IMG/VR virus record: IMGVR_UViG_3300024503_000015
Location: 1-64,000 of that record
Source of the DNA: a virus
Length of the DNA stretch: 64,000 nt
Reading direction: 5' to 3' (one strand)
The position numbers and the translations under genes are program-made. Shown in pieces: positions 1,155-16,274 of the stretch; within the stretch, counting starts at the first letter, position 1; each line of letters starts with the position of its first letter. The notes under the pieces are model-generated. The model was not told the origin of the DNA, did not search any database, and saw only the letters and a list, made by a program, of their open reading frames with translations.

Positions 1155-1802
1155 ATGAAAACTGCCTGTGTGTTCATTGCTGACCCTTACTGCTCTGTTC
1201 AATGCGCTAATGGACTGCTTGGGGTATTGAGTGAGGATTTTCGCATACGCATATTTGGCGCAAGGCCCTTGGAACAGGGCTTTTTTCATGACTGCGATTT
1301 GCTAGTCATTCCTGGGGGCGAAGGAGACAGTGAAAGTTTCCATAGACTCATGCGTAATCATCGAGAGGCCATAAGGGCTTATGTTCAGCAGGGTGGTGCT
1401 TATCTAGGCGTCTGTATGGGTGCTTACTGGGCGGGCAGTCACTACTTGGATATCTTGGACAATCTGGACACCGTACAGTATATCACACAGCCCGGAGCAG
1501 ATACTCGACGCCCTCATGCCAAAAACATTAGGGTAACTTGGCAGGGTGTGGCAACAACAATGTTCTTCTATGATGGCTGTGCCATAGTGGGCCCGGGAGA
1601 GCGAACTGTCTGGGCTACCTATGCCAACGGAGACGCCATGGCAGTGATACAACGTCGCACGGGCCTAATAGGCTGTCATCCTGAAAGTGAACCGTTTTGG
1701 TATGACTACCCTAGTTGGATGCGGGGACATTTCCACCAGGGCAGGGATTGGCTAAGGCTAAGAGAGTTTGTACAGGCTCTGGTTAAAACGGACTATCAGT
1801 AG
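1155..1802 (+). CDS. Class I glutamine amidotransferase-like protein (BPL_N type)
   Basis: The 215-aa product has a class I GATase-like fold resembling the N-terminal domain of biotin-protein ligase (BPL_N family). Visible are a PGGEGDS turn (53-59), a nucleophile elbow GVCMGAYWAG (85-94, Cys87), and a C-terminal GCHPESE (173-179) that supplies His175 and Glu177. The Cys-His-Glu set looks intact, so an amidohydrolase or related thiol chemistry is possible, but no synthetase partner is adjacent and the substrate is unknown. It sits alone behind a leaderless-type promoter. Its end overlaps the end of the convergent helicase gene by 20 bp. Confidence 0.7.
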   Translation: MKTACVFIADPYCSVQCANGLLGVLSEDFRIRIFGARPLEQGFFHDCDLLVIPGGEGDSESFHRLMRNHREAIRAYVQQGGAYLGVCMGAYWAGSHYLDILDNLDTVQYITQPGADTRRPHAKNIRVTWQGVATTMFFYDGCAIVGPGERTVWATYANGDAMAVIQRRTGLIGCHPESEPFWYDYPSWMRGHFHQGRDWLRLREFVQALVKTDYQ

Positions 1803-3252
1803 GGTCTGAACCACCGCCCATGTTATTCAAAAACTGACGTAGGCGTGTGCTGTCTGTCTGTGCTCGAACCTTGGGTATGGCTATGCCCTGCTGTGGATCT
1901 ATTTCGCCGGTAACTGGGTCTACGGACTGCGGTGCTTCTGCGGTGCTCTTGCGTTTTAAATCATCAATGATACTTGAGCTCTTTGGACGGTATTCACTGT
2001 CGCTCTGTCCTTCCAATCCTGGGTCTGTGATGCGTAGTGTATCAATATCAAAGTCTAGGTCAATCTTCATACCCACGCCGCTACTACTACGAGTTTTCAT
2101 TAACTGTATCTGATACTTGCCACGTTCACGCATAGCACGGCTGGTAAAGATACCAAACACGTTATCCGCTGTTTGAATCTTACTAAGTCCGCCTGAAATG
2201 TGACTGTGATCAAATTCAACTTCTTCCACAGCACCACGGTTCAACTGTGCCGCTGTAACAAACACACATTGTTTTTCCATGGCCAAGTTTCTAAGTTCTT
2301 CTGCCACATACTTGTCCTTGACGAACAGGTTTTCTGCACTAATCTTCTTACTGATTGGCAGTAACAGGTCCATATAGTCTACCAGCAGTACGTCCACCTT
2401 ACGACCCATTTTAATTTCATACTCTTTCAAGTAAGCACGAATGTCGTTAGTTGTTTTACCCGATGGCATATACTTGACTTGGAAAGCACCGGACTTCTTA
2501 CCAATCATCTTGACTTTCATTTCAACATTGTCAAGATCCTTGAAAATCTCCTTGGTACTGATGCCTGTGGTCATTGAATCCACACGCATACTAACCAATG
2601 CTTCACTGAGTTCCAATGTTAGGTATACAACGTTTAAACCTTGTAAGGCCCAGTTTACGCCAAGGTTAGCAAGAAAGAGGGATTTACCAGCACCGCTTCC
2701 ACCGGCAAAAATGTTAAGTTCTCCACGGTTCATGCCTCCAAATAATCTCTTGTCCACTGTGTCCCAGCCAGTCTTGACCTGCCCGTTCTTATCTTTAAGA
2801 CCCAGCAAGCGACCTTTAGGATCACTCCAATAGTCTGTACCCATGTCCTTTTGTAGGCCAATCTGTACAGCCTTTTTGATCAGTTCTTCCACAGGACCAT
2901 AGTCACCCTTTTCCAGCATGTCTGCTGATTCTAGAATAGCTCGCTCAAGGCCTTTGTGTTTGGTAAATGTTTCAAACTCCAACATCAGCCAATCGTAGTG
3001 TTCGTCTTTGAGTACACCTGGATTGTTCAGCTCAGTCTTAGTTGCAGCCTTGACCATTTCAAATGTAGGCAGTGCGTTGTGCTCTGTTACATAGGTGTTC
3101 AAAAACTCTGCACAGTCCTGTAGTTTGCGATCAAATAATGTGGGATCAAAAATGCTTTGACAGCGTACAAATGTACCTGCGTCACTGAGCATCATTTCTA
3201 AATATAGTTTCTGGATATCATATCCATAGTCAGTGTTTTGTCTAGTAGCCAT
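1783..3252 (-). CDS. 41: Replicative DNA helicase, DnaB/gp41 type
   Basis: Replicative 5'-3' helicase that unwinds the fork and works with the primase encoded upstream at 4294-5289. The 489-aa length fits T4 gp41. The C-terminal RecA-like domain has Walker A GGSGAGKS (184-191) and Walker B LLVDYMD (289-295), and the N-terminal half is helical. The acidic, proline-rich C-terminus is probably disordered. It is last in the primase-carbamoyltransferase-helicase order and also has its own TATAAT element at 3260-3265, seven nt before the start codon. Confidence 0.92.
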   Translation of the reverse strand: MATRQNTDYGYDIQKLYLEMMLSDAGTFVRCQSIFDPTLFDRKLQDCAEFLNTYVTEHNALPTFEMVKAATKTELNNPGVLKDEHYDWLMLEFETFTKHKGLERAILESADMLEKGDYGPVEELIKKAVQIGLQKDMGTDYWSDPKGRLLGLKDKNGQVKTGWDTVDKRLFGGMNRGELNIFAGGSGAGKSLFLANLGVNWALQGLNVVYLTLELSEALVSMRVDSMTTGISTKEIFKDLDNVEMKVKMIGKKSGAFQVKYMPSGKTTNDIRAYLKEYEIKMGRKVDVLLVDYMDLLLPISKKISAENLFVKDKYVAEELRNLAMEKQCVFVTAAQLNRGAVEEVEFDHSHISGGLSKIQTADNVFGIFTSRAMRERGKYQIQLMKTRSSSGVGMKIDLDFDIDTLRITDPGLEGQSDSEYRPKSSSIIDDLKRKSTAEAPQSVDPVTGEIDPQQGIAIPKVRAQTDSTRLRQFLNNMGGGSDPTDSPF

Positions 3253-3259
3253 AGTTTTT

Positions 3260-3288
3260 ATTATACTTTAATTTTAATGTGTTTGCAA
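3260..3288 (-). promoter_or_regulatory. Putative sigma70 promoter for the helicase gene
   Basis: Reading the - strand, TTGCAA (3283-3288) is followed after 17 nt by a perfect TATAAT (3265-3260). The -10 lies 7 nt from the ATG at 3252, so the predicted start leaves about one nt of leader. It overlaps the 3' end of the carbamoyltransferase gene. Confidence 0.5.
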
Positions 3289-4208
3289 TCTTGCCATTGC
3301 CAATTCCAAATACGATTTCGTGTATGATAGGCCACTGCTCCTATACTGCTACTAGGATCGCCTGGATTAGGCAAACTCCAGATATAGTCAAACTTTGGTT
3401 CAACTACACTGGCATTGGCCTTACTGTTCATAGCACAGCCGCCCATATAGACTAGACAGTCTGCACCAGTTAGATCTTTGGCTGTACGCATAACCATATC
3501 AACCTGTTCTGTGAACACTTCCTGTACAGCGGCCGCTATGTCACACTGGTCCTGAAGATTTCTAATTTCGTGCGGCCAATCGTTGATGCCTCTGTGCATA
3601 TTTTTATGAGCATACACCAATGTGCCCATGTATTCTTTTACATCAAAATATACACGATCAGGATCACCTTGGTCACTCATCTGTTGTAGTAGATGTTCCT
3701 GTTTAATTGGTTCTAGTCCGCATAACTTTGTAAACGCACTATAGAATAACCCCAAACTGTGGGGATAAGTGCGACTCCAAACCTTCTTAAGTTCTCCGTG
3801 CTTACCTTCCCAGATAGTTGCACATTCAAATTCGCCTATAGCGTCGAGAACTACCACAGCACAGTGATTAAATGGGCTAGTGTAATAGCCTGAGGCGGCA
3901 TGACTGGCATGATGTGGAGTATAGGTCACTGGAGCATAGTGTACTCTTATTTTATTCAAGTAGCGTCCGGGTAGCACCGACATATCCAATGCTGTTTTAT
4001 ATTGTCCAGCGTAGACCTGTCTTGCTTTTTTAACCCAAGGACGTTCGTACCAAAAAATTCTATCAGGTGCACCGTGATGTAGTGCTTCTGTTATAACGGC
4101 TGTGTCAAACTCATCTTCTTTGCAACTAACCCAAGATTGAAGAGCGCCATTTTTAAACACAGCCAGGCTACTGCCGTGATTAAGAGCGTTAATACCCCAG
4201 TGAATCAT
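3261..4208 (-). CDS. Carbamoyltransferase, NodU/TobZ family, catalytic domain only
   Basis: NodU/CmcH/TobZ enzymes transfer a carbamoyl group from carbamoyl phosphate, through carbamoyl-adenylate, to a hydroxyl group. Visible are the HHASHAA metal-binding signature (99-105), VVLDAIGE (119-126), SLGLFYSAFT (151-160), GGCAMNSKAN (256-265) and DPSSSIGA (284-291), all of the Kae1-like domain. At 315 aa it lacks the second domain of the usual 550-600-aa enzymes. It lies between primase and helicase and its ATG overlaps the stop of a 34-aa gene, so it is co-expressed with replication. Modified nucleotides or a glycan are possible substrates (inference). Confidence 0.85.
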   Translation of the reverse strand: MIHWGINALNHGSSLAVFKNGALQSWVSCKEDEFDTAVITEALHHGAPDRIFWYERPWVKKARQVYAGQYKTALDMSVLPGRYLNKIRVHYAPVTYTPHHASHAASGYYTSPFNHCAVVVLDAIGEFECATIWEGKHGELKKVWSRTYPHSLGLFYSAFTKLCGLEPIKQEHLLQQMSDQGDPDRVYFDVKEYMGTLVYAHKNMHRGINDWPHEIRNLQDQCDIAAAVQEVFTEQVDMVMRTAKDLTGADCLVYMGGCAMNSKANASVVEPKFDYIWSLPNPGDPSSSIGAVAYHTRNRIWNWQWQDCKHIKIKV

Positions 4209-4309
4209 TTGTAGATATATGGATCCTTCTTGCGAAGAGCTTCCATCCTTTTCTTGAATTTTCTATCTTCAAAGAACTTTTTAATTCTTGCTATTAATTT
4301 AAGAACCAT
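4205..4309 (-). CDS. Small basic 34-aa protein between primase and carbamoyltransferase
   Basis: ATG at 4309, inside the last codons of the primase gene (16-bp overlap), reads MVLKLIARIKKFFEDRKF and on to PYIYK. Its TGA shares an ATGA with the carbamoyltransferase start. A strongly basic amphipathic helix fills most of it. The double overlap implies translational coupling and argues that it is a real gene. Function unknown. Confidence 0.6.
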   Translation of the reverse strand: MVLKLIARIKKFFEDRKFKKRMEALRKKDPYIYK

Positions 4310-5289
4310 TGTTTTGCCTTTAGTTTAATTTTTAATTCTGTGTCTTCTGTTTCGGACACAATCTTATATAAGGTCTGTAAGCGACCTAATTTTTTAACTG
4401 CATCATTGACGTCTTTAACACCTTCGGGCCAACTGGGCATACTAACGCTGTATCTGTTAGCAATAGCCTGTTCAACTGTGCGCTTTCCATCTGCGTCCCT
4501 GTCTGGAACAACAATAACCTTGCGGCCAAGTCTATTGATTAGCAGAGCCTGTTTATCCATGATTTCTGCGCCAAGGATTGCAACTGCATCTATACTTAGT
4601 GCGTCTACAGGACCTTCGACTACTATCACGAATTCCCTGTCCTGTGTTTGACAGTCCAAATTAAACACATATCCAGGAGTTTGATCCGATATGTATTTGG
4701 GTTTACCTTCTATAACTTTACGAGCAGTATGCCCAACAATACGTCCGTCTAATCTAAATGGTATAATTAATCTATCAGCAAACCCTGCCACAGGACACCA
4801 ATAAAAATCATCCAATGGATTTAAGTTTCTGGACCATACATATTCAACTACTGTGTCAAATTGTGCTCTAAGATCCGCGGGTAATTTTGTTAAATGTTCC
4901 AGCCATTCTTTAATTTGTAGACTGCCTTCGGGCAATGGTTTATCTTCAAACTTAGGAATAGTAACTGCTTCCAATGCCTGTTCATCGGATTGGATCTTTA
5001 GTGCTTCTAAAGTAATTTTATTAATGACATCGTCAGGTGCGCCCATCCAACTTAATAGATTACGCATCTTACGAGTTAAATGTCTGCCTGGTTGATAACT
5101 GGCTTTGTAGCCGCAGTTGAAGCAATGATAACTAATACCATCGCCATTTTGAATCATACCACCACGCTGTCTAGTATCTGCTGTTGTGCCATTATGGTGA
5201 CAGCAGACCGCGTTAAACTTTACCCAACCACTGGGTGTTTGTTTCCGTTTTGCAGGGAGGTACGAATAGATTATCTCACCAATACTCAT
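4294..5289 (-). CDS. 61: DNA primase, gp61/DnaG-like
   Basis: Makes RNA primers for lagging-strand synthesis together with the gp41-type helicase. The N-terminal zinc-binding region has Cys29/Cys30 with His31/His32 and a CFNC knuckle (Cys56, Cys59). The TOPRIM core has VVEGPVDAL (223-231, catalytic Glu) and PDRDADG (262-268), followed by VKDVNDAV (291-298). The 331-aa length fits T4 gp61. A box CTAAAATA (5303-5296) ends 6 nt from the ATG, suggesting a leaderless or very short-leader message. Confidence 0.88.
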   Translation of the reverse strand: MSIGEIIYSYLPAKRKQTPSGWVKFNAVCCHHNGTTADTRQRGGMIQNGDGISYHCFNCGYKASYQPGRHLTRKMRNLLSWMGAPDDVINKITLEALKIQSDEQALEAVTIPKFEDKPLPEGSLQIKEWLEHLTKLPADLRAQFDTVVEYVWSRNLNPLDDFYWCPVAGFADRLIIPFRLDGRIVGHTARKVIEGKPKYISDQTPGYVFNLDCQTQDREFVIVVEGPVDALSIDAVAILGAEIMDKQALLINRLGRKVIVVPDRDADGKRTVEQAIANRYSVSMPSWPEGVKDVNDAVKKLGRLQTLYKIVSETEDTELKIKLKAKQWFLN

Positions 5290-6436: not shown

Positions 6437-6444
6437 TATTTATG
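6437..6444 (-). promoter_or_regulatory. Late-type box CATAAATA
   Basis: On the - strand this precedes the structural gene starting at 6403, with a predicted leader near 28 nt. It overlaps the ATG (6442-6444) of the divergent + strand gene. Confidence 0.5.
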
Positions 6445-6813
6445 GTAAAATTAACGGAAGACATCAGAGAAAACTTCCCCTTTATTTCAGTAGTTCATTA
6501 TGGCGGGCTAGAATACGTAGGCATCATTATTAATCAAGATCAATACGTTACTAGCCTTTACAATTACGAAGCACTAAAAACAGAAGAAGATCGCAAGAGT
6601 TTCCTGAGTCTGGGCGAAGCATGGTGGTGGGAAAGTAACCGTACAATTCCTATCAATATCTTCTTAAAATTAGAGATGGAGCAGTTCAAATACTCCGTAA
6701 TGACTATGAATACTAAAGATGTATCCGTAGTATTTGGCCCTACTATAAATCTTCACAACATTTCGATTAAGCGTGTAAAGCGTAAGGTAATACAGTTAGT
6801 TAGAAAACGTTAA
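6442..6813 (+). CDS. Conserved-looking hypothetical protein, 123 aa
   Basis: Unrecognised 123-aa protein, a single + strand gene within a - strand block. It is beta-rich with a Trp cluster (WWWES, about residues 62-66) and a very basic tail (KRVKRKVIQLVRKR). That combination suggests a small nucleic-acid- or membrane-binding factor, but no family is assigned. Its stop codon interlocks with that of the convergent gene at 6810 (4-bp overlap). T4-like phages have a translational regulator (RegA, 122 aa) of similar length in the replication region; I could not confirm homology. Confidence 0.6.
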   Translation: MVKLTEDIRENFPFISVVHYGGLEYVGIIINQDQYVTSLYNYEALKTEEDRKSFLSLGEAWWWESNRTIPINIFLKLEMEQFKYSVMTMNTKDVSVVFGPTINLHNISIKRVKRKVIQLVRKR

Positions 6814-7388
6814 CTAAATCCGTAACTGATATTTTCACAGATTAAATTCATTTGCACAACTACTGCCTGAGCGTAAGCAATAGCGTGTGCCTTCTTAAAA
6901 TAGTATTCATCGTTCTCCGGTTTCGTCCATACTTCCTTCATCACCGAAGTCCATTCTTTCCCAATCAGATAACGTTTCGCCGGACGTATCATCGCTAGGA
7001 CTGCACCTAATTGCTCTATGCTCCGTGGTTTCATTTCTCTTAGAATAGAACCATAACCGTTGACGTGAAACAGCAGATTGTTGAAATCGTCTTGCTCCAA
7101 AAGATCCCATAAGGGTTCAGTCTCCATAAGTTGAATGAGATGCTGTTCATCTCGTACACCTTCGTAAATACCAACATTCAAGAAATCTATCTTGAAATAA
7201 CCTCTTGCTTCTGCTTCTTTATAATCTATTGTGCTTAGGCCTGTGGCAGGATTGTAAGGGATAGAAGTACAATATATGCCTGTGTTGTGCTTTTTAAAAC
7301 TACCATTATCTTCTATAGTCGCAACGACATGCTCTAATTTTTCTAGAGCTTTATTTCTGTCTGCAAAGTCTATGTCAATATCTGGCAT
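6810..7388 (-). CDS. Miniature DnaE-like (DNA polymerase III alpha core) protein
   Basis: 192 aa that align by eye, in order, to the catalytic core of bacterial DnaE. MPDIDIDF at the N-terminus matches the palm motif bearing two catalytic Asp (Asp3, Asp5). HNTGIY (34-39) matches HAGGVV. YFKIDFLNVG (64-73) matches KFDFLGLRT with the third Asp (Asp68). LREMKPRSIEQL to MIRP (116-136) matches LKPxxFEDLI...RPGP. YFKKAHAIAYA (163-173) matches FNKSHSAAYA. About 130 residues between the first motifs, all PHP, beta-binding and OB domains, and most of the fingers are missing. Whether it polymerises is doubtful; a scaffold or regulatory role is possible. The start overlaps the zinc-finger gene stop. Confidence 0.7.
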   Translation of the reverse strand: MPDIDIDFADRNKALEKLEHVVATIEDNGSFKKHNTGIYCTSIPYNPATGLSTIDYKEAEARGYFKIDFLNVGIYEGVRDEQHLIQLMETEPLWDLLEQDDFNNLLFHVNGYGSILREMKPRSIEQLGAVLAMIRPAKRYLIGKEWTSVMKEVWTKPENDEYYFKKAHAIAYAQAVVVQMNLICENISYGFS

Positions 7389-8122
7389 TATAAATTACCT
7401 TCTTTAACTACTTCGGCTATTAGTTCTTTGTCTGCGGGATATGTTCTGAATCGTCTTGCCCAATATTCTGGATCTAAAACTTCGAATACAATGTTTAATT
7501 GTTCGTCATTGAATTTGCCTAATAATGCCCTTCCGCTGTCACAGTTCAATACTAACCATGGACTAATCTTTCCGTCCTTGATTGCGTACACAGCTCGATT
7601 AACACTTACATACTTAAAGTAATGATTCCACTGGCTACTATTTTCATTTGCCCAGTCCATCATTGTAGTTATACTACGCTGTAAAGCCACTTCGGCAGGT
7701 TCTTTCTTTATTAAGTCTAGAACATATTTATAGTACAATTCTTCTCTACACCAGTGATCTAGTTTAACTCCACTGGTAACAACAAAGTCAATGTATCTAT
7801 CTGGATACAAGGGATTTACGTTGCTGAGAAAACTGCCAAACTTTACAAAGGCATTGTAGTAAGGACTTTTAGCAAACTCGTCATAAGTTTTAACGTGTTT
7901 GGCTTTCTGTGTCAGTTGAAAGAATCTAACATAGGTTTGATAGCCTAGTACAACGTGTTTTTCGTCTTTGGCCAAGTGTCTACGTTTTTGCTCACACATA
8001 TGGACCGTAAGGGTAGACTCTTTAACATAAGCACTACCGCAGTACTGACAAACGTATGGTTTTTCAACTGTGGACAATTTTATTTTAATTCCTTTGTGTT
8101 TCTCAAAAACATCTAAGTTCAT
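7388..8122 (-). CDS. Zinc-finger hypothetical protein, 244 aa
   Basis: The N-terminus carries a C2H2/C2HC-like finger (Cys25, Cys28, His41, Cys43 or His49, in YVCQYCGSAYVKESTLTVHMC). The rest is helical with many aromatics and no catalytic motif. It is translationally coupled to both neighbours: its ATG overlaps the upstream TGA as ATGA, and its last base overlaps the mini-DnaE start. A nucleic-acid-binding replication accessory is the simplest reading, but no family is recognised. Confidence 0.65.
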   Translation of the reverse strand: MNLDVFEKHKGIKIKLSTVEKPYVCQYCGSAYVKESTLTVHMCEQKRRHLAKDEKHVVLGYQTYVRFFQLTQKAKHVKTYDEFAKSPYYNAFVKFGSFLSNVNPLYPDRYIDFVVTSGVKLDHWCREELYYKYVLDLIKKEPAEVALQRSITTMMDWANENSSQWNHYFKYVSVNRAVYAIKDGKISPWLVLNCDSGRALLGKFNDEQLNIVFEVLDPEYWARRFRTYPADKELIAEVVKEGNL

Positions 8123-8586
8123 AATGCCTTTTTAATATCTTTATCTTCCCAACCAAGATCCTTAAGACGTTGCTTAACTTCTTTTTCTGTAGTCATGCTA
8201 GACATAAGTTCGAGTTCGTCTTCTTTCAAGTGTGGATATAGTGTTTCCAATACTTTGATAACTTTACTGTTACCTTCTTTCTTTTTATATCCAATCCATT
8301 CGTGAAAATGAATTTTCTTTTCTTCATTACCAGTCATACAAACAAGATACCACAGTAACTTAGGATGCTTACTAAGACTAAAGTAATGCTTGTTAAAGTA
8401 CTCGTTAGTTTTGAAGATAGCCAACTCTTGCGTTTCTCTGTCGCTGGTTTTAATAGAGCTGGCATACCTAAGCAATAGATAAAGACTGATTTGCTTTCTC
8501 TGTTCTTCTGTGAAATTATCCCATAGATCTCTGGCGCCCATATCAATGGCCGCTGTTTCATCTTTGATAGTTAGTTTATCACTCAT
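8119..8586 (-). CDS. Hypothetical protein, 155 aa
   Basis: The start MSDKLTIKDE at 8586 is chosen over an in-frame ATG four codons upstream because it overlaps the preceding stop by only 8 nt. Charged and helical, with a Trp/His patch (KIHFHEWIGYKKKEGNSK) and a C-terminal segment (LKDLGWEDKDIKKAL) like a small UBA or helix-hairpin motif. Unrecognised. It lies in the coupled chain oxygenase, this gene, zinc finger, mini-DnaE. Confidence 0.55.
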   Translation of the reverse strand: MSDKLTIKDETAAIDMGARDLWDNFTEEQRKQISLYLLLRYASSIKTSDRETQELAIFKTNEYFNKHYFSLSKHPKLLWYLVCMTGNEEKKIHFHEWIGYKKKEGNSKVIKVLETLYPHLKEDELELMSSMTTEKEVKQRLKDLGWEDKDIKKAL

Positions 8587-9205
8587 CTTTAGGAACAATC
8601 CTTACATCAAATGCCATTACAGTTCTATTACCCTTACCCTTCCAAGGATAAACTGTGTGTGGCAGATGGCTTGGAAATACAATAACAGTACCTGGTGTAG
8701 GTTTATATTTCCAATTATCTGTCATAATAAATTTACCAACATCTCTAGTTTGTGGTAATCTAAATGCTACATTGCCGTCTGTTGGAGACAAATTTTCATC
8801 TAAATCTGGAGCAGTGATATAAATGTTTCCGCTGATATTGCCGCCTGGATGTGTATGTAATTCTTGATAGTCTCCCTGCGTCTGACGAATAGTCCAGATG
8901 CTGGTAACAACAGGCTTACACAGTTTTAAATCTTCAGTTCCGCTTTGTGCTGTAATAATTTCCATGTAGCCAGTACAGATGTTTTCAATCCATTTGACTA
9001 ACCAAGAAACATCAATGTTTAGTTGATTAGGATATACTTGTATCTGCTGTCCTCCGCGAATACTAATAAATGGATTATCTGCATCATTCAATTCGGGGTG
9101 TCCGTGTAACATCTCAGACAGACTAAAAATTTGACTAAACTCAACTGGTGGTACTTGGTCAATAGCCAACACAGTTGGTTGAAAATATGCTACCTTTAAA
9201 CTCAT
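8579..9205 (-). CDS. 2OG-Fe(II) oxygenase-like protein
   Basis: Resembles the 2OG-FeII_Oxy_5 family: an HTHPGG metal motif (His117, His119) followed by SGNIYI, and a distal FPSHLPHTVYPW with His183 and Arg194 for the 2-oxoglutarate carboxylate. A double-stranded beta-helix fold is expected. Substrate unknown. It is separated from the large oxygenase island at 47-63 kb and sits among replication genes, coupled to the genes on both sides. Confidence 0.75.
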   Translation of the reverse strand: MSLKVAYFQPTVLAIDQVPPVEFSQIFSLSEMLHGHPELNDADNPFISIRGGQQIQVYPNQLNIDVSWLVKWIENICTGYMEIITAQSGTEDLKLCKPVVTSIWTIRQTQGDYQELHTHPGGNISGNIYITAPDLDENLSPTDGNVAFRLPQTRDVGKFIMTDNWKYKPTPGTVIVFPSHLPHTVYPWKGKGNRTVMAFDVRIVPKDE

Positions 9206-10002: not shown

Positions 10003-11463
10003 TTATTCCCAATTTACCTTTTCAATGGTGAAAGGGTATTTGGCTTCTTTGTAGAATTTCTTTCGCTCTGTTAAGTGCCTTTTTGCATATTTGCAAGTAG
10101 ATGTTATGTCCCAGATTTGGACGAAGTCTTTATCCTCTGCCTTTCTAATGCCACGCCCAATGCTTTGTATAACTCGGACAAAGCTCTTTCCGGGCTCCAA
10201 AAGAACCAGATTAAAAATCCTAGGAATATTAAGACCCACAGCGGCCACACCATAAGTCGCCACAATAACCTTGTTATCACTGTCTTTAACTTCATCGTAA
10301 TGTTCCTTTCGCTCCGTGAGCTTGACTTCTCCGCTGATGAACACGGATCCTGGTATTGCATCTACAATCTGTCTACCTGCATCGAGCCTATCTACTAGTA
10401 TTAATGTGTTGCCTGAGTCTTTAATTGAATTGCATAGTTTTGCGATATAACCGACCCTGTCAACGTCTGTGACAAGGTACTTTAATTCTTCTTGGTATGT
10501 TCTAAATTCTTTAACGTCCATTAACTGAACAATGTTAACGTGACACTGACTGAGCACACCTTTTTCCTGTAATGTATGTGCGCTGATACGATTAACCACA
10601 GGACCGAGTGTTGCTAAAATACTGTGGAAGTTAATTTCTTCTTTGGGAACTGTACCAGTTAAGCCCCAACGAATAGGAGCATTAGCCATGTTCTGGCTTA
10701 ACAATTTCTTCAACACTTCCGCCTTGGCCATGTGTACTTCGTCGACAATTACACAGACTACGCCTTCTAAGAATTCTGCTAGACTTAATGTATCACTGTC
10801 GTAACTTTTCTTGTCTAAGATGTTTAGACTTTGCCATGTGCAGATAGTATGTGTGCGACCTAGTTCTTTTCTATCGCCAAAATATACTCCAACATCTAAG
10901 CCAACGTTCTTATAATCTTCTTCGGTTTGTACCACTAGGCCTTTGTTAGGAACAATAACCAATGAACGACCGTAAGGTTCGACAAGTGCGCTTAATGTTG
11001 CTGTGATAATTGTCTTGCCAGCGCCTGTGGCTAGTTCTTGTAAACCCTGTGGATTCTCCATAAATCCATTGATAGCATCTAATTGATAGTCACGCAGTAC
11101 AATAGGCTGTCCGGCTATAGGATGTCCTTTAGGCCATACCTTCCCTTGGTCGGCCCAATACTGATCTGTAATCTTTGCAAATTCAAATTTATGTGGATTG
11201 CGTAGGTCTTCAATCTCTTCGATATCAACTCCGCACTCTTCTAATATGCCTAGGATAACATCGAGATGATTAAGATAACCATTCCCGCCAAGACCAAAAA
11301 ACGTAGTAGTTCCATCCCATCTTCCTAATTTATACTGAGGCATATGGCGAGCATATGGTAATTCAAATTTAAGTGCATTAGAGATCTTCCTGCGAATCTC
11401 TACAGGTAATCCGTCTATCTTAATATTAACTTCGTCTCTGATGACAATTTTACAACTGGACAA
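10003..11463 (-). CDS. uvsW: UvsW-like SF2 DNA/RNA-DNA helicase
   Basis: Superfamily 2 helicase that in T4 unwinds R-loops and D-loops and helps switch from origin- to recombination-dependent replication. The N-terminal substrate-binding part ends in YKLGRWDGTT (44-53). The core has Walker A ATGAGKT (145-151), DEVH (241-244), GLTGT (267-271) and SIGRGIRK in motif VI. Residue numbers assume the TTG codon at 11463, preceded by AAAGGAACA, because the next in-frame ATG would remove the first conserved strands. It overlaps the upstream gene by 14 bp. Length matches the family (about 500 aa). Confidence 0.9.
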   Translation of the reverse strand: MSSCKIVIRDEVNIKIDGLPVEIRRKISNALKFELPYARHMPQYKLGRWDGTTTFFGLGGNGYLNHLDVILGILEECGVDIEEIEDLRNPHKFEFAKITDQYWADQGKVWPKGHPIAGQPIVLRDYQLDAINGFMENPQGLQELATGAGKTIITATLSALVEPYGRSLVIVPNKGLVVQTEEDYKNVGLDVGVYFGDRKELGRTHTICTWQSLNILDKKSYDSDTLSLAEFLEGVVCVIVDEVHMAKAEVLKKLLSQNMANAPIRWGLTGTVPKEEINFHSILATLGPVVNRISAHTLQEKGVLSQCHVNIVQLMDVKEFRTYQEELKYLVTDVDRVGYIAKLCNSIKDSGNTLILVDRLDAGRQIVDAIPGSVFISGEVKLTERKEHYDEVKDSDNKVIVATYGVAAVGLNIPRIFNLVLLEPGKSFVRVIQSIGRGIRKAEDKDFVQIWDITSTCKYAKRHLTERKKFYKEAKYPFTIEKVNWE

Positions 11464-12704: not shown

Positions 12705-12732
12705 ATTATAACACATTTTTTGACGTTGTCAA
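12705..12732 (-). promoter_or_regulatory. Consensus sigma70 promoter, leaderless geometry
   Basis: On the - strand, perfect TTGACA (12732-12727), a 16-bp spacer and perfect TATAAT (12710-12705). The -10 ends 7 nt before the ATG at 12697, so initiation would fall on or next to the start codon. It overlaps the stop of the upstream glycosyltransferase-like gene and drives the 415-aa gene and uvsW with host polymerase. Confidence 0.75.
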
Positions 12733-13574
12733 CGATTTAGTACATTTAATATACGTTTTTGTGGAATGCCTTGGCTAATCTCATCAACGGTCCATTCGGT
12801 GTGTAGTATTTGATGAAACCAATTTTGTCTGTCAGGCAAGAAAATTTCATTAATTTTTGAAATACTAGAACTAAGTGGATGTGCCAGACTGGTTTTATCA
12901 CAAATTATAGGTATTCCTGCGATTGCCGCTTGGGTGCCAGGGCCACTGTTGTGACTAATCACACAATGATGGTCAAATGCAATGTCAAATTTGTCATAAG
13001 TGCCTGGAATTTTATTAGGTTGTTCAAAAATTATACCAGGTATAGGTGCAGTACCAATCGGATGACGAGGATGGGGTCGAAAAATTATGGGTCTGTCTGT
13101 ATATTTTTGAATTTCGGCAACTTTTTGAGATAACCAGGTTCTAGTAGTGGGCTGATTTTGCCATTGTAGGCTTCTTTCATGTTGGCCAACAATTAATATA
13201 GAATTTTTTCTCGAAGATTTTACATCCTGAAGACCTATACCTAATTTTCTCGCTCTGTCATAGTCGATATTTTCGGTATTTCCGTAAATTCCTTCATTGC
13301 TGATGTGATTAGCAGAAATTTTCCATGTACGACCTCGATCCAGTGCTCCAACTTCAATGATGAATACTGGTTTATTCATACTGCGGTAGTGCGTATAGAC
13401 ATTTTCGTTCATACGCATACGACCATTCCACAAAACACTCCAAATCACAGCACAATCTGCATCTTTGCTGTTTTCTCTCGGCTCAATACCAATTTGTCTA
13501 CAGCCGTCAAGGAATGATCCCCATATAGGTTCCGATTGTAATGCTGTCTGATTAGGAAAGTAGGCTATCTTCAT
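12729..13574 (-). CDS. GT-B-like glycosyltransferase or capsule-synthesis-type protein (paralogue 1)
   Basis: 281 aa from the ATG at 13574 (MKIAYFPNQTA). Features of a C-terminal GT-B nucleotide-sugar half are RPHPRHP (about 178-184) and SHNSGPGTQAAIAGIPIICD, followed by a Trp-containing tail (REQW/RQNW...W..DEI). The same layout recurs in the genes at 14372 and 15294, so the three are paralogues. The start at 13574 is set by a promoter box 8 nt upstream; an earlier in-frame ATG would lie upstream of that box. Probable role: glycan transfer to host surface or virion, or interference with host polysaccharide. Confidence 0.6.
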   Translation of the reverse strand: MKIAYFPNQTALQSEPIWGSFLDGCRQIGIEPRENSKDADCAVIWSVLWNGRMRMNENVYTHYRSMNKPVFIIEVGALDRGRTWKISANHISNEGIYGNTENIDYDRARKLGIGLQDVKSSRKNSILIVGQHERSLQWQNQPTTRTWLSQKVAEIQKYTDRPIIFRPHPRHPIGTAPIPGIIFEQPNKIPGTYDKFDIAFDHHCVISHNSGPGTQAAIAGIPIICDKTSLAHPLSSSISKINEIFLPDRQNWFHQILHTEWTVDEISQGIPQKRILNVLNR

Positions 13575-13577
13575 AGA

Positions 13578-13589
13578 GTAAATATTTAC
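13578..13589. promoter_or_regulatory. Palindromic bidirectional late-type promoter GTAAATATTTAC
   Basis: A 12-bp perfect palindrome in which each strand reads TAAATA. On + the box ends 5 nt before the ATG at 13590; on - it ends 8 nt before the ATG at 13574. Both divergent genes would be leaderless and compete for one element. Confidence 0.6.
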
Positions 13590-14384
13590 ATGATTATACC
13601 GCCACTGCAAGGAAAATTAAGCCACACCGATTTTTTCATCTATGGAGCCTGTGATGAGAAATATTTTGATGAATTTGGAAAATCTTTAATTAACAGCATT
13701 CAAAAAAATAGTAATAATAATATTCACATTCATTTGTTTAATCCTAGACAAGATCAATTAGATTTTTGTCAAAATAAAAATGTTTCTTACTCGTATGAGT
13801 ATGCTCCTTTAGATTTATTTTTAAATGCCGCAAACAAGTGGTCGCAAAATTTAATTAATCCTGATGATTTAGAGAGAAAACAACGTATTTTAAAATCTAT
13901 GGAAAAAGGCGGCGACAAATCTATTATTGAACGAGTACAAAAAACTTATTTTGCCTGTGCTAGATTTATACGTTTAAAAGAATTAATACAACCAACACAA
14001 CCATTCTTTTCTATAGATGTTGATGCTGTTGTTAGAAAAAATATTGTTTCATTAGCATCTACTAAACATTTTTATATACACCAAGTTCCAGGAAAGAAAT
14101 CTAGATTTTTAGCAGGAGGACTGATGTCTCCAGGAAATGTTGAAACAAGTCAGTTTCTATCAGAATATGCAAATCTTCTTGAAATTAATTTAAAAGGCGA
14201 TTACATTTATTGGGGATTGGACCAAGATGTACTTTTACCACTAGTGCCAAAGTACAATTATGGAAATTTACCCATGTCATACATCGACTGGGAAATGAAT
14301 GCTCACAGTTGCATCTGGACTGCTAAAGGTGTTAGAAAAAGTTTAAAGATTTTTGTAGAAGAACAATCGCGTTATTTGATATAA
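13590..14384 (+). CDS. DXD-motif glycosyltransferase-like protein (GT-A)
   Basis: 264 aa. Early strands FFIYGACDEKYFDEFGKSL and IHIHLFNPR fit the N-terminal half of a GT-A fold, and SIDVDAVVRKN (about 138-148) supplies a DxD metal motif. WGLDQDVLLPL near the C-terminus resembles the donor-side loop of GT8-like enzymes. It is the only + strand gene in the glycan cassette. It is AT-rich and overlaps the convergent gene by 13 bp, consistent with acquisition as a separate unit. Acceptor unknown. Confidence 0.6.
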   Translation: MIIPPLQGKLSHTDFFIYGACDEKYFDEFGKSLINSIQKNSNNNIHIHLFNPRQDQLDFCQNKNVSYSYEYAPLDLFLNAANKWSQNLINPDDLERKQRILKSMEKGGDKSIIERVQKTYFACARFIRLKELIQPTQPFFSIDVDAVVRKNIVSLASTKHFYIHQVPGKKSRFLAGGLMSPGNVETSQFLSEYANLLEINLKGDYIYWGLDQDVLLPLVPKYNYGNLPMSYIDWEMNAHSCIWTAKGVRKSLKIFVEEQSRYLI

Positions 14385-15322
14385 TTTCTCATGTGATTCC
14401 AGCATCTGCCCGATCTGGTATCGTCGAAACTCCAATGACATTGTGCAAGTTTCTTAATCCACTGTTCTCTATCTGCTAGTATAGGATTTTCTAATTTACT
14501 AAAATCTGTATTAGCAACATCGCCTCCTTGACTGTAACTAGGATCGTCTGTAATAAAAGCAGGTATACCTTCTATTGGAGCAACGGCACTAGGCGTACTA
14601 TTATGACAAACTAGTGCCCAACAATTAATTAAATCTTCAGTGATATGTCTTTCTTGAGGACTAATTGTAGCATTATATTTTTTTAATAACGGTGCATAAT
14701 TTGAAAAATTCTTCCAGTCTCCGGGATGCCAACGAATAACAACGGGACGGTCAGAATAAGTTCTTATTTTAGTAAATGTTTCCTCTAACCACTTCATTAG
14801 ATTGTAACCTCGCATACTCCAACCCATGGGGCGTTGTAGTGTAATAAGAATATGATTTCCAGTTGAACGCCACGGTTTTAAATCCATATCATAATCGCGT
14901 TTAATATTGTTCCAGTTTTCTTCTCCAGGATTATCGTTACAATAGATACCTGTTGCCGGAAATACGCCATTGAAACTATATCTTAAATATTTTTTAGGGT
15001 TTTCTTTATTCTTATAGATGAACACGTTACTATCAATACTAAGCCAATATCTTCCATTTTTAATCTGTGTGTCCATTACCATTTTACGAACTTTATAATG
15101 GTCCAACGTAGTTTTACTTGGATTTGCATCGAAGGCATTTCCAATAATTGCACCCACGTCACAAGGTTCATATTGATAAGAAGTTGTAGTAGATGCCAGG
15201 TCTCCACATTTTGCGGCGCCTTCTGCAAAGTATGTTAGTGCATTTACTTTCTCGGTGCCATTGATATGCTTAGGTAGGCTACTAAGATAACTTTTAATAA
15301 TTAATTGTTTCGCGTTGTTCAT
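14372..15322 (-). CDS. GT-B-like protein, paralogue 2
   Basis: 316 aa with the paralogue signature: VVIRWHPGDWKNF (donor-site region), then CHNSTPSAVAPIEGIPAFITD, then a DREQW...HWSFDD tail like the genes at 12729 and 15294. The SxxxAxxxGxP segment resembles the capsule-polysaccharide or Kdo-transferase type of nucleotide-sugar site. The start overlaps the upstream gene by 29 bp. Probably acts on the same glycan as its paralogues. Confidence 0.55.
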   Translation of the reverse strand: MNNAKQLIIKSYLSSLPKHINGTEKVNALTYFAEGAAKCGDLASTTTSYQYEPCDVGAIIGNAFDANPSKTTLDHYKVRKMVMDTQIKNGRYWLSIDSNVFIYKNKENPKKYLRYSFNGVFPATGIYCNDNPGEENWNNIKRDYDMDLKPWRSTGNHILITLQRPMGWSMRGYNLMKWLEETFTKIRTYSDRPVVIRWHPGDWKNFSNYAPLLKKYNATISPQERHITEDLINCWALVCHNSTPSAVAPIEGIPAFITDDPSYSQGGDVANTDFSKLENPILADREQWIKKLAQCHWSFDDTRSGRCWNHMRNYIK

Positions 15323-16274
15323 TTTCTAAAACCATTCTCCAAGCATCGCCTGTTATCATTTCTTCTAGATGAAATTGTCCGTAGGCCAGCGAACTACACC
15401 ACTTATAAACAAAACTCTCGTCAGGGTAAAACGGTGTTTCTATCTTTGACAAATCTTTTAAACACACCGGATCCGCCGCAGTAGGTGCTGTAGTAAATGC
15501 AGGTATTCCATAGGCTACTGCTTCTATGGCCGCAATACTATTAAGTGTGACTACAGCAAAAATATCTTCGTCTAGTGCTTGATATATTGTTTTTTTAAAC
15601 GTTCTATCTGGCCTTGACATTTTTTCTCTAATAACAATTTCTCTATCTGTATATTTTTTTAATGTATCAACAGTAGACGCAATCCAAGAATCTTTTGTAT
15701 AACCGTAGTTCCCTGCAGATTTATCAATTGGTGCTATCAGTAAAATTTTGCTGCCGGATTTTTTCCATCCTTTCCATTTTAAATTTTCATCTATGGCACA
15801 AAGTTGTTCCCATCTGTCACCGGGCACATTTAAAATTTTTTCGTGTTGCATGGAATTTTTTACAATTCTATGCCATAATTTTTTAGCATTTGGATTAACA
15901 GTTGTTCTGTAGTTTCCAAAGTATCCAGTTTCTATAAAATAATAATCTAATCCTTTGTCTTTAACTAAGTTAATATAATCGGTAGATGCAATGCCTCTAA
16001 CTAATATTGGTTTAGTGATATTTTTAACAAATTTAAATTCGTTATACAGTTGTATATCTTTATCAGGAAAACTAATCATAGTTAACGCTGTTAAATCTGT
16101 ATCTGCAATTAATCGAAGAAAAAGATTCTGTTTTTGTTCTAAAATAACGTTATTATTTTTCTTTCTAAGTTCTTGTATTTCGTGATAAATTTTATAAACG
16201 ATTTGTGCTTGATCGATTATTCTATCTATATTCGATGTACTGGTAGACTTAGCCAGTGCCGTCGGAATAATCAT
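15294..16274 (-). CDS. GT-B-like protein, paralogue 3
   Basis: 326 aa. The most diverged of the three: EIVIREKMSRPDRTFK replaces the RPHP site, but VVTLNSIAAIEAVAYGIPAFTT and the terminal CSSLAYGQFHLEEM block keep the pattern. The N-terminal half is Lys- and Asn-rich. It overlaps the GT25 gene by 26 bp. With the usual proline/histidine donor residues missing, activity is less certain than for paralogues 1 and 2. Confidence 0.5.
   Translation of the reverse strand: MIIPTALAKSTSTSNIDRIIDQAQIVYKIYHEIQELRKKNNNVILEQKQNLFLRLIADTDLTALTMISFPDKDIQLYNEFKFVKNITKPILVRGIASTDYINLVKDKGLDYYFIETGYFGNYRTTVNPNAKKLWHRIVKNSMQHEKILNVPGDRWEQLCAIDENLKWKGWKKSGSKILLIAPIDKSAGNYGYTKDSWIASTVDTLKKYTDREIVIREKMSRPDRTFKKTIYQALDEDIFAVVTLNSIAAIEAVAYGIPAFTTAPTAADPVCLKDLSKIETPFYPDESFVYKWCSSLAYGQFHLEEMITGDAWRMVLENEQRETINY

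Follow-up and report, generated by a model that had tools for sequence, protein, structure and literature searches.

Why should a virus that encodes a T4-like DNA polymerase of the B family also encode a very short protein resembling the alpha subunit of bacterial DNA polymerase III (Pol III)? This question is raised by an ORF at positions 6810–7388 (minus strand) of the window, the 64,000-nucleotide stretch of DNA analysed here, which comes from the record of an uncultured 270-kb virus (IMG/VR IMGVR_UViG_3300024503_000015; genome label G000). The ORF starts with ATG and encodes 192 residues, comprising the catalytic palm strands and truncated fingers of Pol III alpha (DnaE). An earlier note had described the product as a miniature DnaE with its motifs in order, and both the ORF and the named motifs were confirmed. 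The note had also placed the gene in a replication block of a virus with a T4-like B-family polymerase, which is indeed the case: the genome encodes such an enzyme of 889 residues (DNA_pol_B, 6.5e-37, plus an exonuclease domain) with the motifs DINSLYPS, KINLNSLYG, and YGDTDS. The analyses below led us to regard the 192-residue protein as the C-terminal half (C-half) of a split minimal Pol III alpha, the N-terminal half (N-half) of which is encoded at a distant locus.

Resemblance of the C-half to Pol III alpha

The C-half possesses, in the same order as DnaE, the motifs PDIDIDF, KHNTG, YFKIDFL, MKPRS...IRPAK, and YFKKAHAIAYA. A library search assigned it to PHROG 11778, annotated as "DNA polymerase" (5.9e-67), and NCBIfam DnaE models matched it weakly (9e-4). 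The Pfam fingers domain scored under the cut-off (0.052) with the C-half alone, so that a single-sequence Pfam search by itself would miss the likeness to DnaE. A C-half profile built from 48 relatives reached the sequences of solved Pol III alpha at 3.7e-4. Alignment of the profile with the single E. coli DnaE sequence using hhalign gave a weak probability of 25.7% (E = 7.4e-4), and we therefore relied on the family, profile, and fold searches. In the last of these, a Foldseek search of the PDB with the AF2 model of the C-half (mean pLDDT 88, pTM 0.74), ranks 1–15 were taken up entirely by Pol III alpha chains and entries titled "DNA polymerase", with Pol III alpha first (E = 6.8e-4, probability 1.00); the entries at ranks 14 and 15, both from 2025, bear that title alone. 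The resemblance found by the three kinds of search exceeds chance, in agreement with the homology originally proposed.

The motifs also allow the residues to be numbered according to E. coli DnaE (MPDFDVDF at 399–406, KFDFLG at 553, RPGPL at 639, and NKSHSAAY at 757). D3, D5, and D7 of the C-half correspond to D401, D403, and D405, K66 and D68 to K553 and D555, R135 to R639, K166 to K758, and H168 to H760. The codons of D3, D5, and D7, forming the metal-binding motif DIDID, lie at 7368–7382, and those of K66, I67, and D68 (K553, F554, and D555 in E. coli), which include the third catalytic aspartate, at 7185–7193 (both minus strand). The assignment of D3, D5, and D68 as catalytic thus holds, and the three metal-binding palm aspartates of C-family polymerases are all present in the C-half. 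In the AF2 model, D5 and D7 are located on strand 4–7 and D68 on strand 66–70, with D3 just ahead of the first strand. Among 42 non-redundant relatives (mutual identity below 80%), the invariant positions are D3, D5, D7, H34, G37, K66, D68, L70, R135, P136, K138, H168, and Y172, the three catalytic aspartates among them. Comparison with the closest relatives gave dN of 0.10–0.13 and dS of 1.4–1.7, the latter near saturation, with dN/dS of about 0.07–0.09; the dN/dS value for L008 was disregarded because the ungapped comparison spanned an indel. The C-half is under strong purifying selection.

The C-half chain lacks the GS nucleotide-binding motif of DnaE, which sits in the partner gene described below. 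Also missing is the fingers stretch around MLRRAMGKK (residues 707–715 in E. coli). This region of the DnaE fingers helps bind the triphosphate, so that activity could be weak or altered.

The N-half and its pairing with the C-half

A search of the viral genome with PF07733 (DNA_pol3_alpha) found one place above the cut-off (G000:191421-191669, minus strand, 8.2e-13). It falls within a gene for a 168-residue protein, the N-half (G000:191418-191924, minus strand), about 184 kb from the C-half gene. The protein belongs to PHROG 11127 "DNA polymerase" (9.4e-43) and contains the NTP-binding motif lacking in the C-half, as GVGRGSS (GxGRGS). Residues G134, G136, R137, G138, and S139 of this motif (G-x-G-R-G-S) are 100% conserved in 44 non-redundant relatives, and dN/dS of the N-half gene in comparison with its closest relatives is about 0.08–0.13. 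The C-terminal part of the N-half aligns with residues 346–393 of E. coli DnaE and stops there, and the C-half begins at 399. The split point therefore lies in the palm, with about five residues (394–398) unaccounted for between the halves. The earlier estimate that about 80% of the protein is gone is correct for the ORF in the window (192 of 1160 residues) but overlooked the further 168 residues encoded elsewhere.

Taken together, the two halves correspond to the palm of DnaE plus a portion of its fingers. Their 192 and 168 residues leave no room for the thumb, PHP, beta-binding, OB, and C-terminal domains, and the gap at the thumb is visible in the alignment of the C-half with DnaE. In the Foldseek search with the AF2 model of the N-half (mean pLDDT 90, pTM 0.67), Pol III alpha again came first and ranks 1–11 consisted exclusively of entries for Pol III alpha or a DNA polymerase, with a best E-value of 0.014 and probabilities up to 0.99. 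Beyond rank 15 for the C-half and rank 11 for the N-half, almost all matches were at chance level. For both models the best E-values are modest. TM-scores over the whole model are low, at most about 0.45, which indicates that only portions of a large enzyme are matched.

On the basis of these observations, we consider it probable that the C-half and N-half together constitute an active two-part minimal polymerase of the C family (Pol III alpha). The halves would assemble into a single palm of the Polbeta fold without covalent joining, the C-half contributing the metal-binding aspartates and the N-half the GxGRGS motif, and the assembled palm would be catalytically active. Joining by a split intein was considered and rejected: no intein sequence was found at either split end, where the N-half ends in EFLR and the C-half starts with MPD. 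The suggestion that the ORF in the window is a minimal enzyme is likely to be right as regards minimality, whereas the protein itself appears to be only half of a polymerase encoded by two genes, of a kind described in 2021. That the C-half alone is a complete minimal enzyme, as the presence of all three metal-binding aspartates might imply, seems highly improbable, given that the N-half, present in every examined genome long enough to judge, supplies the GS motif and a portion of the palm. We also find it decidedly improbable that the protein is a catalytically dead, DnaE-derived decoy or scaffold, acting, e.g., by displacing host Pol III or binding the clamp or primase. Its small size and the fact that replication is already covered by the B-family polymerase would suit such a role, which the earlier note had raised as a regulatory decoy; however, the three catalytic aspartates, K66, and the GxGRGS motif of the partner are strictly invariant and dN/dS is very low, and a decoy would have no need to keep these residues. 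The evidence accordingly speaks against that suggestion.

The distribution of the two genes bears on the pairing. Homologs of the C-half with a query coverage of 80% or more were found in 90 phage records, including RaK2, 121Q, GAP32, CBB, PA5oct/Paride, Atu_ph07, XacN1, SCTP-2, and Phosso, with identities of 37–52% for most of the matches listed and 32% for the most distant among them. At least 555 stretches of viral contigs encode a relative of the C-half. Exactly one C-half and one N-half were present in each of 16 phage or virus genomes picked across the range of the family, at distances from 11 kb, in an Alishewanella phage whose genome measures 141 kb, up to well above 150 kb; both halves also occur in four others (G001, G012, G014, and G015) and in the genome of the window. 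In all of these 21 genomes, each half is present in a single copy and the two are never adjacent. Shorter contigs often contain a single half, as expected of fragments, and a 212-kb genome classed as linear (G011) that has only the N-half is probably a fragment as well. The co-occurrence may partly reflect vertical inheritance within one phage clade. The B-family polymerase was found in all 16 genomes searched besides that of the window. Alishewanella phage vB_AspM_Slicko01 (L244; 141,431 bp) encodes both halves and a B-family polymerase, and since its genome is well under the jumbo limit, the split enzyme occurs in smaller genomes too. Both halves are also carried by Pseudomonas phage Paride (OR805295.1), for which replication in dormant P. 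aeruginosa has been reported (PMC10761892).

The earlier note had called the C-half a relic. Decay of a host-derived DnaE would account for the truncation relative to DnaE, but is scarcely credible in view of the many relatives in viral contigs, with intact frames and conserved length, the purifying selection, the fixed gene order described below, and the 1:1 pairing with an N-half that carries the NTP-binding motif. The conservation, including the invariant catalytic positions, and the low dN/dS refute this reading. A cellular origin of the minimal form was likewise not borne out. Outside viruses, a scan of genome_contigs for the C-half gave nine strong matches (47–63% identity), all in MAG contigs of unrelated phyla that resemble phage, and two further weak matches in Clostridia (22%). 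The nine contigs (L283–L291) are filed under Neomarinimicrobiota, Elusimicrobia, Pacearchaeota, and other bacterial and archaeal phyla, and are probably phage contigs binned with cells.

Genes surrounding the two halves

The C-half gene lies in a conserved block with the order UvsW helicase, 159-residue protein, 244-residue protein, C-half, convergent 123-residue protein, 367-residue protein, primase, and DnaB-like helicase. The frequencies given here refer to 154 C-half loci, many of which are on short contigs and some of which come from records counted more than once. The 244-residue protein (7388–8122, minus strand; PHROG 11058), with a weak C2H2-like zinc finger, is encoded immediately upstream of the C-half and is found in 141 loci; its stop codon overlaps the C-half start codon by 1 nt, and the two genes may be translationally coupled. 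Further upstream is the gene of the 159-residue protein (8119–8598, minus strand; PHROG 11758), present in 137 loci. This protein shows a weak match to RecX_HTH1 (0.0019), and our impression is that it might be a small clamp-loader subunit (gp62-like). On the other side, the 3' end of the gene for the 123-residue protein (6442–6813, plus strand), a member of the unannotated family PHROG 11637, overlaps the end of the C-half gene; it is found in 142 loci as the lone opposite-strand gene facing the C-half, its orientation being kept. The outer members of the block, all on the minus strand, are the UvsW-like helicase (10003–11463, 486 residues; PHROG 16, 1.4e-76, and Pfam ResIII), a Toprim-domain primase-like protein (4294–5289, 331 residues; Pfam Toprim_2, 3.7e-7), and the DnaB-like replicative helicase (1783–3252, 489 residues; Pfam DnaB_C, 6.4e-18). 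An annotated primase occupies the corresponding place in RaK2, GAP32, and PA5oct. As for the N-half gene, the clamp loader is encoded no more than about 2 kb from it in the genome of the window, GAP32, and Atu_ph07.

Some other genes in the region deserve mention. Between the primase and DnaB-like helicase genes, positions 3261–4208 (minus strand) encode a protein with a carbamoyltransferase N-terminal domain (Carbam_trans_N, 9.8e-28), which, as a guess, might serve DNA base modification. A BPL_N / class-I glutamine amidotransferase-like protein (3e-13) is encoded at 1155–1802 on the plus strand, opposite to the replication genes. Three ORFs of similar size (293, 316, and 326 residues) at 12729–16274 have such common motifs as RPHP/RWHP and HNS..A...GIP/AF, and look like paralogues, perhaps glycan-related transferases.

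The gene block is also relevant to the nature of the catalyzed reaction. The Polbeta fold includes many non-polymerase members, the fingers of the pair are heavily reduced, and the thumb is missing; the pair might thus be an active nucleotidyltransferase that is not template-directed and, e.g., extends the end of a DNA or RNA molecule with nucleotides or has a protein as the target of modification. We regard this as unlikely, as the invariant residues beyond the metal site are those of the DnaE finger motifs (RP-K and FKKxHAxAY) and the C-half gene is in the replication block at nearly every locus.

Relation to known polymerases and possible role

A split minimal Pol III alpha was described in 2021 in group 2.2 jumbo phages (Viruses 2021, 13:63, PMC7824862). 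It consists of an N-terminal NTP-binding half and a C-terminal Mg/template half, encoded by distant genes beside a family B polymerase, with the other Pol III domains absent; that the halves form a catalytic enzyme was a prediction of the authors, who argued for the split enzyme as a model of the bacterial replicative polymerase in its ancestral state. A separate Mg/template C-half, a distant NTP-binding N-half, and a family B polymerase are all found here, and in these features nothing essential differs, the present example coming from the record of an uncultured virus. We conclude that the pair is a new, apparently intact member of this split Pol III alpha. Its homologs in PHROG 11778 (C-half) and PHROG 11127 (N-half), such as FDI40_gp074/gp316 of Atu_ph07, GAP32_282/323, and CBB_328, are mostly annotated as "hypothetical protein" or "DNA polymerase". 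A truncated alpha subunit was noted in CBB in 2017 (CBB_328, 172 residues; PMC5259590) and an alpha subunit in Atu_ph07 in 2018 (PMC6102473). A search of the literature library found no biochemical study of the split enzyme.

The phage pair has the catalytic motifs and palm fold in common with bacterial DnaE, which in contrast is a single chain of about 1160 residues with PHP, thumb, full fingers, beta-binding, OB, and C-terminal domains. Cyanobacterial DnaE is also encoded by two genes, but there the fingers are the site of the split and a split intein ligates the two parts, whereas the phage split is in the palm and involves no intein sequence. An obligate partner of the DnaQ/epsilon type was examined and rejected: an epsilon-like exonuclease (PF00929) was found in just 10 of 17 genomes, and the PF00929 search of the genome of the window found none. 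Proofreading by such a partner is therefore not general.

As to function, the loss of the thumb and the MLRRAMGKK stretch suggests low processivity and hence an accessory role. The two-part polymerase may make short stretches only, as an accessory to the B-family replicase, although this is less certain than the activity itself. Its likeliest tasks would be to lengthen primers made by the primase ahead of hand-over, or else to fill gaps and serve in repair. The position of the C-half beside the primase and helicase genes and of the N-half beside the clamp loader points to primer extension, a role that, taken by itself, we propose tentatively. It is conceivable, but rather doubtful, that nature has no smaller C-family polymerase than this pair, and that it is an obligate enzyme of two unligated subunits, working next to a family B replicase and dedicated to extending primers or filling gaps. 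If so, these phages would have their own counterpart to the way in which initiating and main replicative polymerases divide the work elsewhere.

The present analysis adds to the 2021 description the strict co-occurrence of the halves, the invariant catalytic residues in both, the conserved gene block, and a 141-kb phage. The range is apparently widened to the Alishewanella phage and Stenotrophomonas phage RAS14. If active, the pair would show how little of Pol III alpha suffices for synthesis, and would make a C-family polymerase in two parts available for purification and assay; biochemical tests of it would have a bearing on the ancestral-state argument (PMC7824862). It would also help explain the presence of a second, bacterial-type polymerase beside the B-family enzyme in T4-like giant phages.
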